A program made the translations under genes and the position numbers. Positions 33,325-49,693 of a DNA stretch of 64,000 bases are shown one piece after another. Location of the stretch: NCBI RefSeq assembly GCF_006149045.1, contig NZ_VBSN01000016.1:1-64000 (forward strand), given 5' to 3'. Position 1 is the first letter of the stretch, and every line of letters starts with the position of its first letter. Source of the stretch: Dyadobacter flavalbus. Its GTDB lineage: Bacteria; Bacteroidota; Bacteroidia; Cytophagales; Spirosomataceae. The notes beneath the pieces are model-generated. The model saw only the letters and a list, made by a program, of their open reading frames with translations. It searched no databases and was not told the origin of the DNA.

Positions 33325-34482
33325 TTATTCTACGGGAATGGCTGTACGTGCAAGATCCACAAGATCCGCATCATTAACTTCCTTTTTCAGATCGGCAACT
33401 TCCAGGAACCTAGTGTAAAGTTCATCCAGTGCTGATTTGTCAAAACTAAAACCAAGCAACTCCAGGCGGTGTTTCAAAGCATGGCGGCCGCTTCTTGCCG
33501 TCAGTACAATATCGGATTTGTCCACGCCCACATCCTGCGGATTCATGATCTCGTAATTCAAAGTATGCTTAAGAAAACCGTCCTGATGAATACCCGAAGA
33601 ATGCGCAAATGCGTTACGCCCGACAATCGCTTTGTTGGCTTGTACCGGCATGCGCATCATTTTGGAAACCAGCTGGCTTGTAGGATAAATGAACTGCGAG
33701 TTCACTCCCGTTTCCAGACCAAGCTCCTTATGCACGTTCAAAGCCATTACTACTTCTTCCAGAGAAGTATTTCCGGCGCGTTCGCCGATTCCGTTAATGG
33801 TAACTTCCACTTGCCGTGCTCCCTGGATTATTCCCGCAAGAGAATTGGCAGTTGCAAGTCCGAGGTCATTATGGCAGTGAATGGAAATAACTGCTTTGTG
33901 AATATTGGAAACATTTTCAAATATGTAGCGGATTTTTGCACCGTATTCGTCAGGCAGGCAGTAGCCGGTTGTATCCGGAATATTTACGACCGTCGCGCCG
34001 GCTCCGATTACCGCTTCTACAAGCTGAGCCAGAAAAACCAGATCCGCACGCCCTGCATCTTCACAGTAAAATTCAATGTCTTCAACTTTGCTTTTGGCAT
34101 ATTTGGTAGCAGAAATTGCTCTTTCAATGATCTTTTCGCGCGTTGTATTGAATTTGTGCTGAATGTGAATATCGGATGAGCCGATTCCGGTATGAATCCT
34201 TCCTCTGCTGGCATATTGCAATGCTTCTGCTGCTGCGTCAATATCGCCTTGTACAGCGCGTGACAATGCACAAATGACGGGTTCACGCACTGCTTTGGAA
34301 ATTTCGACAACAGAACGAAAGTCACCCGGGCTCGATACCGGAAAGCCTGCTTCAATAATATCTACACCGAGTTTTTCGAGTTGCCTGGCTACAACAATCT
34401 TTTCTTCTGTTGTTAATTGGCTGCCTGGAACCTGCTCGCCGTCTCGCAAAGTTGTGTCGAAGATCTGAACTCGATTACTCAT
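33325..34482 (-). CDS. leuA: 2-isopropylmalate synthase, short form without regulatory domain
   Basis: LeuA condenses acetyl-CoA with 2-ketoisovalerate, the committed leucine step. The TIM barrel shows [13 protein letters not shown], the [12 protein letters not shown] metal site and [19 protein letters not shown]. At 385 residues it stops after the linker subdomain and lacks the roughly 130-residue C-terminal LeuA dimer domain that binds leucine in enzymes of about 520 residues. Control by leucine may therefore act on expression: a leader peptide and attenuator lie in the 261-nt upstream gap. Confidence 0.85.
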
Positions 34483-34530: not shown

Positions 34531-34564
34531 TATAAAACCCTTTCCTGATGAGAGAAAGGGTTTT
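34531..34564 (-). terminator. leuA attenuator terminator
   Basis: On the minus strand AAAACCCTTTC pairs with GAAAGGGTTTT (11 bp, 9-nt loop) and runs into TTTTATATTG. It lies 49 nt before the leuA start and 31 nt after the stop of the leader peptide, so it can stop transcription before leuA. Upstream bases GGGAAAGG (34583-34590) can pair instead with CCTTTCTC in the left arm and loop, forming a competing antiterminator. Confidence 0.8.
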
Positions 34565-34595
34565 AAAACGAGTCAAAACTTAACCTTTCCCGTTA

Positions 34596-34646
34596 TCACG
34601 GAAATGTAAGAATAATAAGATCAAGATTTGTATCGCGTGCGTTCAT
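34596..34646 (-). CDS. leu leader peptide
   Basis: ATG 34646 opens a 16-residue peptide MNARDTNLDLIILTFP ending in TGA at 34596. Three Leu and two Ile are grouped at residues 8-13. The end of the frame (TTT CCG TGA) is itself the left arm of a hairpin with ACGGGAAA. This is the standard layout of amino-acid attenuators, in which ribosome stalling at scarce Leu-tRNA frees the antiterminator. Confidence 0.75.
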   Translation of the reverse strand: MNARDTNLDLIILTFP

Positions 34647-34655
34647 TGGAAAGTT

Positions 34656-34674
34656 GCGAAATTTCGCTAACTGT
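34656..34674 (-). promoter_or_regulatory. 19-nt box shared with the ilvD leader
   Basis: GCGAAATTTCGCTAACTGT (plus strand) is identical to 48712-48730 upstream of ilvD. Its core GCGAAATTTCGC is a 12-bp palindrome. Here it lies 9 nt before the leu leader peptide start. It may be an operator for a shared regulator or an RNA element. Confidence 0.65.
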
Positions 34675-34713
34675 ATGTTTGTTCTGCAAAGAAAACATAA
34701 GTTTTGCTTCTTG

Positions 34714-34721
34714 CAAATATA
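34714..34721 (-). promoter_or_regulatory. Candidate leuA promoter -7 element
   Basis: TATATTTG followed by C on the minus strand is an exact TAnnTTTG match. It overlaps the region just beyond the leuB stop (34744) and lies about 70 nt before the leader peptide. leuA therefore probably has its own promoter in addition to read-through from leuB. No -33 TTG is found. Confidence 0.45.
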
Positions 34722-39615: not shown

Positions 39616-39797
39616 TTTCTATAAATTAAAAATTTCGCCTCTGCAATACTGGCTTCAAAGAAATGACTGTGTAAAATGCAATTTCCTTAAAGGAGAAATG
39701 ACAATACAAAGTAGAGAAAATTATAAGGAATAAGGATAACGTTAAAGGCTCAAAAAATAGCGATTCTGGTTTGGACGTACACTTTGAACGGAAATCT

Positions 39798-40658
39798 TTA
39801 TTGTTTCAGTTCCGTGTGTTTTTTGGGCGTCATGCCAAATTTATCTTTATACGTTTTAATAAAATGCGAAACGCTTTCATAGCCGATTTCCGTACTGATC
39901 TCCGAAACGTTTCTGGTACTGTTCCGCAGCAGAAAATCTGCATAATCAAGGCGTTTGTTTTTAAGCCATAATGCCGGCGAAGTATGGAATTCATCCTGAA
40001 AATCCCTTTTGAAAGCGGACAGACTTCGGCCGGAAAGCCGTGCCAGTTCATTTAATGTAAGCGGTTTAAGGTAATAACTGTTCATCAGAAACGACAGGTC
40101 CACTTTTTCGCCTTTGTACAAACTGTAAAGAATGGCACGCAGCTGTTTGGAATTATCAAGTTCCAGCAAATGCAGCAGCAGCTCCTGAAATTTCAGCCGG
40201 AGAAAATGGTTTTTCAAATCCGTTCTGGACCGGAAATATGGAAATACGGATTGGATGAACTTTTCAAAATTGTCATCGGATTTCAGCAGCAGAATCGGAT
40301 TTTCAAAAATTGTAACCGCTACGTCCGGATTAAAAAGCTCGGGATGCAGGCTGACGAATTCTTTCAGCAGTTTTTCATCAAAGAAAAATACAAGACTTTT
40401 ATAGGATTCATTAATGGATTCCGACATCAGGTAAAAACCCCTTTGAATAAACAGAATATCGCCTTTTTCCACATGCACTTCCTGCGTCGGACTTGTAAAG
40501 CGTTTTTCCCCTTCCAGCACAACAATGACCGCATGCTCTTCAAAAAACACATCGTACTTGGAAGGATAAACTTCATTGCGGTATGCAACAAAAGTCATAT
40601 CCTGAATTTTCAGGGACTCAAATTCCTGAGAGCTGATATCGGACGGAACGCGCAGCAA
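39798..40658 (-). CDS. AraC-family transcriptional regulator
   Basis: This is a 286-residue regulator with an N-terminal cupin-like effector domain (VVLEGEKRFTSPTQEVHVEKGDILFIQRGFY). The C-terminal double helix-turn-helix (about 185-283) reads LTLNELARLSGRSLSAFKRDFQDEFHTSPALWL and NVSEISTEIGYESVSHFIKTYKDKFGMTPKKH. The frame opens at TTG 40658; the first ATG (40598) would remove 20 residues. It lies 30 nt after an outer-membrane-like gene and between the ilv and leu groups. A role in branched-chain control is possible but unproven. Confidence 0.85.
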   Translation of the reverse strand: MLRVPSDISSQEFESLKIQDMTFVAYRNEVYPSKYDVFFEEHAVIVVLEGEKRFTSPTQEVHVEKGDILFIQRGFYLMSESINESYKSLVFFFDEKLLKEFVSLHPELFNPDVAVTIFENPILLLKSDDNFEKFIQSVFPYFRSRTDLKNHFLRLKFQELLLHLLELDNSKQLRAILYSLYKGEKVDLSFLMNSYYLKPLTLNELARLSGRSLSAFKRDFQDEFHTSPALWLKNKRLDYADFLLRNSTRNVSEISTEIGYESVSHFIKTYKDKFGMTPKKHTELKQ

Positions 40659-46853: not shown

Positions 46854-48539
46854 CTATGCCTCGTCCGTCACACAGCCTTCGCTTGCCGACTTTACGGTTC
46901 TGATATATCTTCCCAGCATTCCTTTAGTAAACCGTGGTGCAGGCTGCACCCATGCTGCTTTCCGGGAAGCCATTTCCTCGTCCGTAATATGCAATGTAAG
47001 CTGGCGGGTATTTGCATCAATGCTGATCCTGTCACCATCTTTTACCAAGGCAATCGGACCGCCGTCAAAAGCTTCCGGTGTAATATGCCCTACAACAAAA
47101 CCGTGTGTTCCGCCTGAAAAACGGCCATCTGTGATCAATGCGATTTTATCACCCAAACCGGCGCCGATTACGGCAGAAGTCGGTTTCAGCATTTCCGACA
47201 TGCCCGGGCCGCCTTTTGGGCCTGCATTGCGGATTACAACAACATGGCCGGGCTTGATTTCACCATTTGCCAAAGCAGAAATAATTTCCGACTCGTGCTC
47301 GCATATTTTTGCTTCACCGCTGAAAGTCATTCCTTCTTTACCGGTTATTTTGGCAACTGCACCGGTAGGCGCCAGGTTTCCGTACATAACCTGTATATGT
47401 CCGCTCGGTTTCATTGGCTCTTCAAGCGGGAATACAATTTTCTGTGTTTCAAAATTCAGATCAGGCGCTTCCGCAAGGTCTTCCGCCAGCGTTCTGCCTG
47501 TTACCGTTATACAGTCTCCGTGAATCAGACCTTTGGAATACAGATATTTCATGACCGCCGGAACACCACCGATTCCAAGCAGATCTTCCATATAGTACTT
47601 TCCGCTTGGCTTCAGATCCGCAATGAACGGAGTGCGATCCGAAATTTCCTGAATATCATCCAAAGTCAGCGAAAGGCCTGCCGAACGTGCAATCGCAAGA
47701 AAATGCAGCGCCGCATTGGTAGAACCGCCTAGTGCCATCACGAGTGTCAGGGCATTTTCAAGCGACTTTTTGGTAATGATATCTTTTGGCGTAATATTCA
47801 GTTCCAGCAACTTTTTCATTGCTGTTCCTATCTTTTTGCACTCTTCCTGCTTGCCTTCATGCGTGGCCGGATACGAACTGCTGAAAGGAAGGCTCAATCC
47901 CATAGCTTCTATGGATGCAGCCATTGTATTGGCCGTATACATCCCGCCGCAGGCACCTTGGCCCGGAATCGAGTTCTGGATTACACCTTTAAAATCTTCG
48001 TCTGAAATGTTGTTTGCAAACTTTTTACCCAGTGCTTCAAACGCCGAAACAATATCCAGTTTCTGACCTTTATAATGCCCCGAACGGATGGTTCCGCCAT
48101 ATACCATAATGGCTGGTCTGTCGAGCCTGGCCATGGCCATTACTGCGCCGGGCATGTTTTTGTCACAACCAACGACAGCAATTACACCGTCGTACCATTG
48201 AGCAGAAACAACCGTTTCAATCGAATCGGCAATGATATCGCGGCTTGGCAGCGAATAACGCATGCCGTCGTTGCCATTGGTCATTCCGTCGGAAACACCG
48301 ATTGTATTAAAGATCAGACCAACCATATCATTTGCCGTAACACCCTGCTTTACATAAACGGAAAGTCCGTTCAGGTGCATGTTGCAGGGATTTCCTTCGT
48401 AACCCGTACTGGCAATTCCGATTTGTGGCTTGGCAAGATCTTCCTCTTTCAGTCCGATGCCGTACAGCATTGCCTGTGCAGCCGGGTTTGTAACTTCCTG
48501 GGTAAGGGTTTTTGAAAATTTGTTCAGTTCAGTCGCCAT
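46854..48539 (-). CDS. ilvD: Dihydroxy-acid dehydratase
   Basis: IlvD dehydrates dihydroxy-isovalerate and -methylvalerate to the 2-keto acids. The 561-residue protein has iron-sulfur cysteines in [26 protein letters not shown] and early GNPCNMH, and the C-terminal [22 protein letters not shown]. It is the first structural gene of the ilv operon. A leader peptide and attenuator occupy the upstream 130 nt. Confidence 0.95.
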
Positions 48540-48560: not shown

Positions 48561-48593
48561 AAAAACACCTCACTCTTTGCCGTGAGTGAGGTG
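48561..48593 (-). terminator. ilv attenuator terminator
   Basis: On the minus strand CACCTCACTC (48584-48593) pairs with GAGTGAGGTG (48566-48575) around an 8-nt loop and runs straight into TTTTTATTTAT. It ends 22 nt before the ilvD start. Alternative pairing of its left side with the segment just after the leader peptide would prevent this fold. Confidence 0.88.
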
Positions 48594-48633
48594 CCAGATA
48601 TATGCTGTCATCCCACTCACGCCTTTGACGTGA
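48581..48633 (-). promoter_or_regulatory. ilv antiterminator and pause hairpin
   Basis: Three competing segments can be read on the minus strand. Segment 1 TCACG (48629-48633, in the last leader codons) pairs with CGTGA. Segment 2 CGTGAGTG (48614-48621, containing the leader stop) pairs either with segment 1 or with segment 3. Segment 3 CACTCACG (48581-48588) pairs perfectly with segment 2 over 8 bp. Since segment 3 is part of the terminator, 2:3 and 3:4 are mutually exclusive. Confidence 0.8.
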
Positions 48634-48670
48634 CCAAAATGGATAAGAGAGTAATTGCAAACAGTTTCAT
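48617..48670 (-). CDS. ilv leader peptide
   Basis: ATG 48670 opens the 17-residue peptide MKLFAITLLSILVTSKA with TGA at 48617-48619. It has four Leu, two Ile, one Val and two Thr, packed at residues 6-14. That is the composition expected of a multivalent ilv leader such as that of the enteric ilvGMEDA operon, though the sequence is different. The stop codon lies within attenuator segment 2. No Shine-Dalgarno is seen, as usual for the phylum. It is too short to be found by ordinary gene prediction. Confidence 0.85.
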   Translation of the reverse strand: MKLFAITLLSILVTSKA

Positions 48671-48680
48671 GAGAATTACA

Positions 48681-48733
48681 CTAACAGTTAATAGCGGAAT
48701 ACTAAATTGCAGCGAAATTTCGCTAACTGTTAG
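48681..48733. promoter_or_regulatory. Inverted repeat and shared 19-nt box before the ilv leader
   Basis: CTAACAGTTA (48681-48690) and TAACTGTTAG (48724-48733) are exact inverted copies. Next to the second copy is the palindrome AGCGAAATTTCGCT (48711-48724). The stretch 48712-48730 is identical to 34656-34674 before the leu leader. It may be an operator that coordinates both transcripts. The rest of the 344-bp ilvD-murQ gap holds only promoter-like sequence. Confidence 0.6.
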
Positions 48734-48853
48734 TATTTGATACAAATTAGAAGGGTATCTTTTTATTTTCCAAACATTAACATGATTATTTGACAATATT
48801 CTATGATAAATACCAAATTTATCCTTGGTAAAGAATAGTAATCGGAAAACATT

Positions 48854-48883: not shown

Positions 48884-49693
48884 ATGATGACAACAGAATC
48901 GCCTTCCAGCTATAATGATCTGGAAAAAATGAGCGTCAAAGACATTTTGACCTCCATTAATACAGAAGACCAAACAGTTCCGAACGCAGTTCAAAAATCA
49001 ATTCCGCAGATTGAAGCGCTGGTTTCGCAGATTGTTCCGCGTATGAAGAAAGGCGGACGGCTGTTTTACATCGGCGCAGGAACAAGCGGAAGGCTCGGAG
49101 TCGTGGATGCTTCCGAATGCCCGCCAACTTTTGGTGTTCCTTTTGATCTGGTTGTAGGAATAATTGCAGGCGGCGACACGGCCATCCGAAAAGCGGTGGA
49201 AAATGCAGAAGACGACTGGAATCAGGCGTGGATTGATCTTGCTGTTTACAAGCCGAATGCGAACGATACATTAATCGGAATAGCAGCTTCGGGAAGAACG
49301 CCTTATGTAATCGGCGGCCTGAATGAAGCGCGGAAAGCAGGCCTGCTCACCGGATGCGTTGTGTGCAATGACGGTTCGGCAGTGGCAAAAGCAGCGGAAT
49401 TTCCCGTGGAAGTCGTTGTAGGTCCTGAATTTCTGACAGGAAGTACACGGATGAAAGCCGGAACAGCTCAAAAATTGGTGCTGAACATGATTTCAACCGC
49501 AGTGATGATCCGGCTTGGAAAGGTAAAAGGCAATAAGATGGTCGATATGCAGCTGACGAATGAAAAACTTGTAAACCGGGCCCTGAAAATGATTACAGAT
49601 GAAATAAATGTGTCACCGGAAGAAGCAGAATCGCTTTTGAATGAATACGGAAGTGTACGGGCCTCCATTGAAGCATACGGAAAACAGGCTTAA
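48884..49693 (+). CDS. murQ: N-acetylmuramic acid 6-phosphate etherase
   Basis: MurQ cleaves the lactyl ether of MurNAc-6-phosphate, giving GlcNAc-6-phosphate and D-lactate, in cell-wall recycling. The 269-residue SIS-domain protein has the family motif YIGAGTSGRLGVVDASECPPTFG and later LTGSTRMKAGTAQKLVLNM. The catalytic Glu lies in DASECPP. It is slightly shorter than E. coli MurQ (298). It stands alone, divergent from ilvD, with no murP or anmK neighbour. Confidence 0.93.
   Translation: MMTTESPSSYNDLEKMSVKDILTSINTEDQTVPNAVQKSIPQIEALVSQIVPRMKKGGRLFYIGAGTSGRLGVVDASECPPTFGVPFDLVVGIIAGGDTAIRKAVENAEDDWNQAWIDLAVYKPNANDTLIGIAASGRTPYVIGGLNEARKAGLLTGCVVCNDGSAVAKAAEFPVEVVVGPEFLTGSTRMKAGTAQKLVLNMISTAVMIRLGKVKGNKMVDMQLTNEKLVNRALKMITDEINVSPEEAESLLNEYGSVRASIEAYGKQA

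Follow-up and report, generated by a model that had tools for sequence, protein, structure and literature searches.

A probable ribosome-mediated attenuator upstream of ilvD, and a similar Leu-tuned element upstream of leuA, in Dyadobacter flavalbus

The window analyzed here, a 64,000-nucleotide stretch of the Dyadobacter flavalbus genome, carries on its minus strand the cluster ilvDBNCA (NCBIfam TIGR00110, TIGR00118, TIGR00119, TIGR00465, and TIGR02079, all above cutoff) and leuA. Both ilvD and leuA are preceded by a promoter-like site, a palindrome, a short leader open reading frame (ORF), and a predicted terminator (Table 1). A first-pass annotation had proposed a complete branched-chain attenuator before ilvD; its claims were checked in the window, in 48 genomes of the genus (the window's own included; IlvD present in 48/48), and in ilvD loci of other genera.

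Table 1. Positions of the ilvD and leuA leader features in the window, with the basis of each assignment
Feature	Position	Strand	Basis
Promoter-like -33 element TTTG (Bacteroidota type) before ilvD	48771..48774	-	consensus match only
Promoter-like -7 element TAATTTG (TA-n-TTTG, one base shorter than TAnnTTTG) before ilvD	48743..48749	-	consensus match
Palindrome AGCGAAATTTCGCT, candidate operator or short RNA stem	48711..48724	.	18 nt past the -7-like box
ilvD leader ORF MKLFAITLLSILVTSKA (ATG 48670, TGA 48619-48617)	48617..48670	-	read from sequence
Segment 1, CATTTTG + G + TCACGTC	48627..48641	-	fold
Segment 2, GGCGTGAGTGGGATG, containing the leader stop codon	48609..48623	-	fold
Segment 3, CACCTCACTCACG (terminator 5' arm plus loop bases)	48581..48593	-	
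Segment 4, GAGTGAGGTG plus T run (predicted intrinsic terminator with segment 3, 12 pairs)	48561..48575	-	
ilvD, first gene of ilvD-ilvB-ilvN-ilvC-ilvA (cluster runs to 42045)	46854..48539	-	
-33-like TTTG before leuA	34714..34717	-	consensus only
-7-like TTTCTTTG before leuA	34687..34694	-	consensus only; A at position 2 absent
Second palindrome AGCGAAATTTCGCA	34655..34668	.	genome search
leuA leader ORF MNARDTNLDLIILTFP with TGA	34596..34646	-	sequence; leader here in 47/48 genomes
leuA segment 2, GGAAAGG, able to pair with CCTTTCT (34559-34553)	34584..34590	-	
leuA leader terminator TAAAACCCTTTCTCTCATCAGGAAAGGGTTTTA	34533..34565	-	fold
leuA (2-isopropylmalate synthase)	33325..34482	-	NCBIfam NF002086 above cutoff; TIGR00973 just below its cutoff

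Results

The 17-residue leader was found on the minus strand as proposed, with Ile, Leu, or Val at 7/17 residues, all 7 of them among the 16 after Met. By itself, this peptide carries little weight as evidence (P of about 0.04 for at least 7 such residues of 16, given a background of 21.6% from 33 window genes), and its ORF contains no CTA codon. Coordinates place the leader stop codon within segment 2, as had been claimed, and all three proposed pairings exist: 1:2 (TCACG/CGTGA) is part of a longer hairpin than described, with 7 inner pairs and an outer helix CATTTTG/TGGGATG; 2:3 joins CGTGAGTG (48621-48614) to CACTCACG (48588-48581); and 3:4 joins CACCTCACTC (48593-48584) to GAGTGAGGTG (48575-48566), followed by TTTTT. 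The predicted intrinsic terminator lies between the leader and the first structural gene, its T run only 21 nt from ilvD, and the 2:3 antiterminator excludes 3:4. Since the gene upstream of the leader (at 48884) is on the plus strand, the simplest target for the terminator is the ilv transcript.

The 110-nt leader stretch folded with a z score of -3.07 (1/200 shuffles equally good). Terminator-like sites showed no excess between 46000 and 51000 (6 found, 6.1 expected), the one in the ilvD leader being the strongest of the 6. No Rfam family (leader, riboswitch, and T-box families included) matched the window at its gathering score; matches at E values up to 10 were sub-threshold only. A 10-base inverted repeat (CTAACAGTTA/TAACTGTTAG, 48733-48724 with 48690-48681) flanks the palindrome before ilvD in the window; it differs by one base in L082 and was not noticed, by eye, in the remaining rows.

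The first-pass annotation had looked to close relatives for refutation, and this check turned out in its favor. The leader frame, its I/L/V richness, and the terminator, here called the cassette, were kept in 46/48 same-genus genomes, and the alternative pairings were present in nearly all same-genus rows. Across the ilvD leaders, 384/726 codons in frame specify Ile, Leu, or Val, compared with 96/680 and 53/680 out of frame; the start codon taken was the one yielding most I/L/V, which somewhat favors the in-frame count, and starts are doubtful in several rows (L083, L085, L088, L093, L104, and L117). The cassette is absent, with ilvD still present, from L120 and L121, and likewise from L008 and L021, whose upstream sequences match them. 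In a tree of 11 ilvD rows, the two cassette-less loci fell apart (2 changes; a single change in 0% of 200 bootstrap trees); because only 1/8 inner branches was well supported, two losses are likely rather than demonstrated. L008 and L021 retain the promoter-like site and the palindrome, and these cassette-less relatives are ready-made natural controls.

Over the 46 genus rows with the cassette, paired cells amounted to 89.1% for 1:2, 86.9% for 2:3, and 97.2% for 3:4, compared with at most 61% when the columns were slid by 1 to 3. RNAalifold, run without a supplied structure, recovered 1:2 and 3:4. The 1:2 hairpin has at least 5 pairs in 46/46 rows and at least 10 in 45 (counts taken without a shuffled control), and compensatory changes occur mainly in it, at columns 57/64 (CG in 36, UA in 5, and AU in 1); its last pair (columns 58/63) is unpaired in 27/46. 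Pairs changed on both sides were not above shuffles within the genus for 1:2 and 2:3 (347 and 437 of 500 shuffles, respectively, reached the observed value), and the one such pair in 3:4 was reached by 62/500. As to the covariation suggested earlier as a check, segments 2 and 3 barely vary within the genus, so that there is little covariation in them. Within-genus covariation as proof of 2:3 and 3:4 was rejected for too little variation. Near-frozen segments are expected where each would serve two helices, and support for 2:3 accordingly comes from distant lineages.

For these, the best 80 of 584 ilvD loci were screened for a leader plus terminator, a set made up of nearest relatives and not a phylum sample (9 Dyadobacter and 71 others; upstream DNA shorter than 160 bases in L010 and L055 and shorter than 600 in some others). 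The screen was passed by 22/80 ilvD regions, compared with 2/80 reverse complements and 1/800 dinucleotide-shuffled regions. Outside Dyadobacter, 17/71 loci passed and 54 failed, the passing lineages including Rhabdobacter, Runella, Siphonobacter, Emticicia, Arcicella, Saprospiraceae, Sinomicrobium, and Robertkochia; within Dyadobacter, 5/9 passed, and L007 and L022 have the cassette yet miss the I/L/V cutoff. Some distant Bacteroidota thus have the identical layout in other letters. When the partner of the terminator arm near the leader stop was compared with letter-shuffled sequence, 2:3 was found in other letters in 14/17 passing distant loci (P of at most 0.03 against 200 shuffles each); in L026, L041, and L046, the 2:3 pairing was no better than in letter shuffles. 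Some distant leaders resemble membrane segments (for example, MSFNNSIIIIIISVIVTII). Evidence from the window alone is moderate; sequence comparison with relatives argues strongly that the ilvD leader is secure.

Ribosome positions were simulated by masking, with a stalled ribosome covering the A-site codon plus 9 nt. A stall at one or more I/L/V codons left at least 5 2:3 pairs in 46/46 genus rows and 17/17 distant rows. With the stall at the last I/L/V codon (for leuA, the last Leu codon) at least 4 codons before the stop, at least 8 2:3 pairs remained in 46/46 genus rows (215/920 shuffled-leader controls) and in 16/17 rows outside the genus (146/340 controls). With the ribosome at the stop codon, the terminator formed in all 63 rows (46/46 and 17/17), and 2:3 fell below 4 pairs in 38/46 genus rows (435/920 controls; 8/46 kept at least 4) and in 10/17 distant rows (130/340 controls; 7/17 kept at least 4). 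The position of the ilvD leader stop thus lets a ribosome halted at it block segment 2. Being made before segment 3, the 1:2 hairpin would protect segment 2; without a ribosome, RNA ending at segment 3 had at least 4 2:3 pairs at equilibrium in 27/46 genus rows (the window's included) and 12/17 distant rows, and 1:2 could therefore protect only by being the earlier helix to form.

A search with the palindrome led to the leuA element (34717-34533, minus strand), where the fold of 34645-34530 had a z score of -5.59. One genome of the 48, L146, lacks the leuA palindrome and leader start and still has the terminator; it was counted among the 48 rows for codon content (its peptide is spurious) and excluded from masking (47 rows). 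Leu makes up 200/720 codons of the leuA leaders in frame, compared with 58/672 and 19/672 in the other frames and with 146/726 in the ilvD leaders; Val makes up 6/720, compared with 113/726 in the ilvD leaders. Both leader sets are therefore enriched in the product codons of their operons, and amino acid content follows the pathway, though the leuA leaders also contain 81 Ile. The rare Leu codon CTA accounts for 14/1283 Leu codons in 33 window genes, compared with 52/146 in ilvD leaders and 33/200 in leuA leaders.

When the ribosome was stalled at a Leu codon, at least 8 2:3 pairs were left in 47/47 leuA rows (227/940 controls). When the stop codon and the 9 nt after it in the mask were crudely covered, 2:3 fell below 4 pairs in only 3/47 rows (480/940 controls), 44/47 keeping at least 4, which is worse than the shuffled control; under this mask, the leuA stop position did not block segment 2 in most of the 47 rows. 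The leuA element thus follows the stall half of the attenuation logic and, by the crude mask, not the stop half. A covariance-model search of the genome for further copies of the ilvD-type element returned, at E values up to 1, only the known place (150/786 first-look candidates scored), and neither a terminator nor a leader was seen by eye upstream of leuC (39616-39797). An AraC-type regulator gene (39798-40658, minus strand; NCBIfam matches below cutoff only) adjoins leuC within the ilv-leu cluster.

At no more than one mismatch, the palindrome (AGCGAAATTTCGCT/A) occurs at only 2 places in the 6.48-Mb genome of the window, before ilvD and before leuA, both at branched-chain promoter-like sites. 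In other genomes of the genus, 1 to 5 places qualify at this tolerance, compared with 0 to 3 for the reversed control; the clear-cut count of 2 therefore applies to the window's genome. Counted in the fetched upstream regions, GCGAA-WW-TTCG is present in 48/48 genus ilvD regions and 47/48 genus leuA regions. With box patterns picked by eye, its distance downstream of the -7-like box is 18 nt in 47/48 ilvD regions and 40/48 leuA regions (17 nt in 7 and none in 1). TAnTTTG or TTATTTG was found in 48/48 genus ilvD regions, the promoter assignment being a consensus match plus conservation.

Among the best 80 of 584 ilvD loci, 35 show GCGAA-NN-TTC[AG]C in the 600 nt ahead of the gene. Loci of Spirosoma, Fibrella, Larkinella, and Lacihabitans that fail the attenuator screen have the palindrome upstream of ilvD. 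Across the 80 loci, the palindrome is thus conserved more broadly than the attenuator, and it is probably a protein-binding site or, less probably, a short RNA stem. An Lrp-like or other regulator is a candidate binder. Two palindrome copies about 240 nt apart (about 490 to 575 and 250 to 340 nt upstream of ilvD) occur in L037, L038, and L046, and L041 has a related palindrome inside a longer hairpin.

Discussion

We consider it highly probable that the ilvD leader attenuates transcription through the ribosome, in the manner of ilv/leu leaders, and that a similar, Leu-tuned attenuator precedes leuA. The first-pass reading of the ilvD leader as such an attenuator is supported, and relatives keep the layout. 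From what is seen directly (the reading frames, their amino acid bias, the possible pairings, the terminator, the order of these parts, and their conservation), we infer the following course. RNA polymerase would begin the transcript a few bases beyond 48743, and its first products would be the leader ORF and 1:2 hairpin. A free-running ribosome translating the leader would reach the TGA in segment 2 and mask that segment, so that 3:4 could form and transcription would stop near 48561. Under a shortage of charged Leu-, Ile-, or Val-tRNA, the ribosome would stall on the leader codons and mask segment 1, which would free segment 2, allow 2:3 to form, and let polymerase continue into ilvDBNCA.

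A small ORF that happens to adjoin a terminator of the usual kind, one closing off a transcript from upstream, would account for a window peptide that is only mildly I/L/V-rich (P of about 0.04) and for nearby terminator-like sites at the shuffled level. This is extremely unlikely: the gene at 48884 is on the plus strand, leaving no close upstream gene on the same strand to end, just 21 nt separate the T run from ilvD, the set is conserved in 46/48 genomes, and 1/800 shuffled regions passes the screen. It is also very unlikely that the leader RNA acts as a switch that binds a ligand or protein (a riboswitch, T-box, or similar) and in which the short frame is incidental. Conserved stems, a terminator, and a palindrome in the 5' region would suit such a switch, but a frame bias and a Val and Leu content that differ by operon would not be expected from it, and the window has no Rfam match at the gathering score, with sub-threshold matches only at E values up to 10.

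Nor do we put any but the faintest trust in the idea that the short frame is the gene, carried on the shared transcript, for a hydrophobic micropeptide with a function in the membrane. Certain distant leaders do look membrane-like (MSFNNSIIIIIISVIVTII is one), but leuA leaders (for example, MSQQDNLILNLQQLP) are no hydrophobic helices, the leaders are enriched in the rare codon CTA, and the window leader stop falls in segment 2. Attenuation remains our preferred reading of both leaders.

The shared palindrome hints at an additional regulator of the pathway. With about even confidence for and against, we propose that branched-chain operons of Bacteroidota are under widespread two-layer control, in which a palindromic operator TAGCGAA-WW-TTCGCTA just downstream of the transcription start would be combined with a modular, codon-specific attenuator. 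The operator part of this proposal would be kept across Cytophagales genera and bound by a yet-unnamed regulator; the cassette would be gained or lost as a module, tuned to Leu/Ile/Val before ilvD and to Leu before leuA. Attenuation depends on a ribosome that follows polymerase closely, and a working leader would therefore be direct evidence of coupling in Bacteroidota; if the two-layer proposal is true, the cassette, which works only with ribosome and polymerase moving together, would be a marker of transcription-translation coupling in the phylum.

The literature search found no published account of this ilvD or leuA leader (subscription journals are thinly covered), and the matches listed for the 12-letter palindrome core bear unrelated titles. 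Bacteroidetes/Chlorobi are reportedly listed in the comparative prediction of amino acid operon attenuators by Vitreschak and others (2004). The Bacteroid-trp RNA RF01692, which has no gathering-score match in the window, is presumably a trp attenuator. In the table concerned, it is given as a likely cis-regulatory RNA of Bacteroidetes (PMC2864571). Passages on Bacteroides mention short ORFs reminiscent of leader peptides and give the Bacteroidota promoter consensus TTTG/TAnnTTTG (PMC7366714). Authors writing in 2010 stated that, apart from ermC, their own Firmicutes case was the first leader peptide system known to them to have been demonstrated outside Proteobacteria and Actinobacteria (PMC2965389). 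For Flavobacterium psychrophilum, in the same phylum as Dyadobacter, the same mechanism, leader-peptide attenuation upstream of amino acid biosynthesis operons, has been suggested, with pheA and hisG named among conserved 5' elements and "ilv" occurring 0 times in the main text (PMC9723704). The earlier remark that such leaders are rarely annotated in Bacteroidetes is thus fair for the literature surveyed and needs the qualification that the mechanism had already been suggested for Bacteroidota, in the relevant part of PMC9723704. The mechanism type is a textbook one, and to the Flavobacterium suggestion the ilvD leader adds a well-supported case; the leuA attenuator, the CTA enrichment in both leader sets, and the shared palindrome are the fresher parts. 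Together, the two leaders are a well-delimited attenuator pair in a phylum where such control is only hinted at in the literature surveyed.

Enteric ilv leaders have the 1:2/2:3/3:4 layout described here. In the enteric ilvGMEDA, ilvBN, and leu attenuators, as treated in the relevant part of PMC1183508, a leader ORF is likewise rich in product codons, and ribosome position chooses between terminator and antiterminator; the rare Leu codon CUA is discussed there for the Salmonella leu attenuator, and CTA use in the Dyadobacter leader sets parallels it. The likeness is one of layout, with no sequence relation claimed: the Dyadobacter promoter-like site is of the Bacteroidota type, and, in contrast to the enteric attenuators, ilvD and leuA of Dyadobacter are each preceded by a leader of their own, a switch of the same kind being kept by relatives and used twice in one gene cluster.
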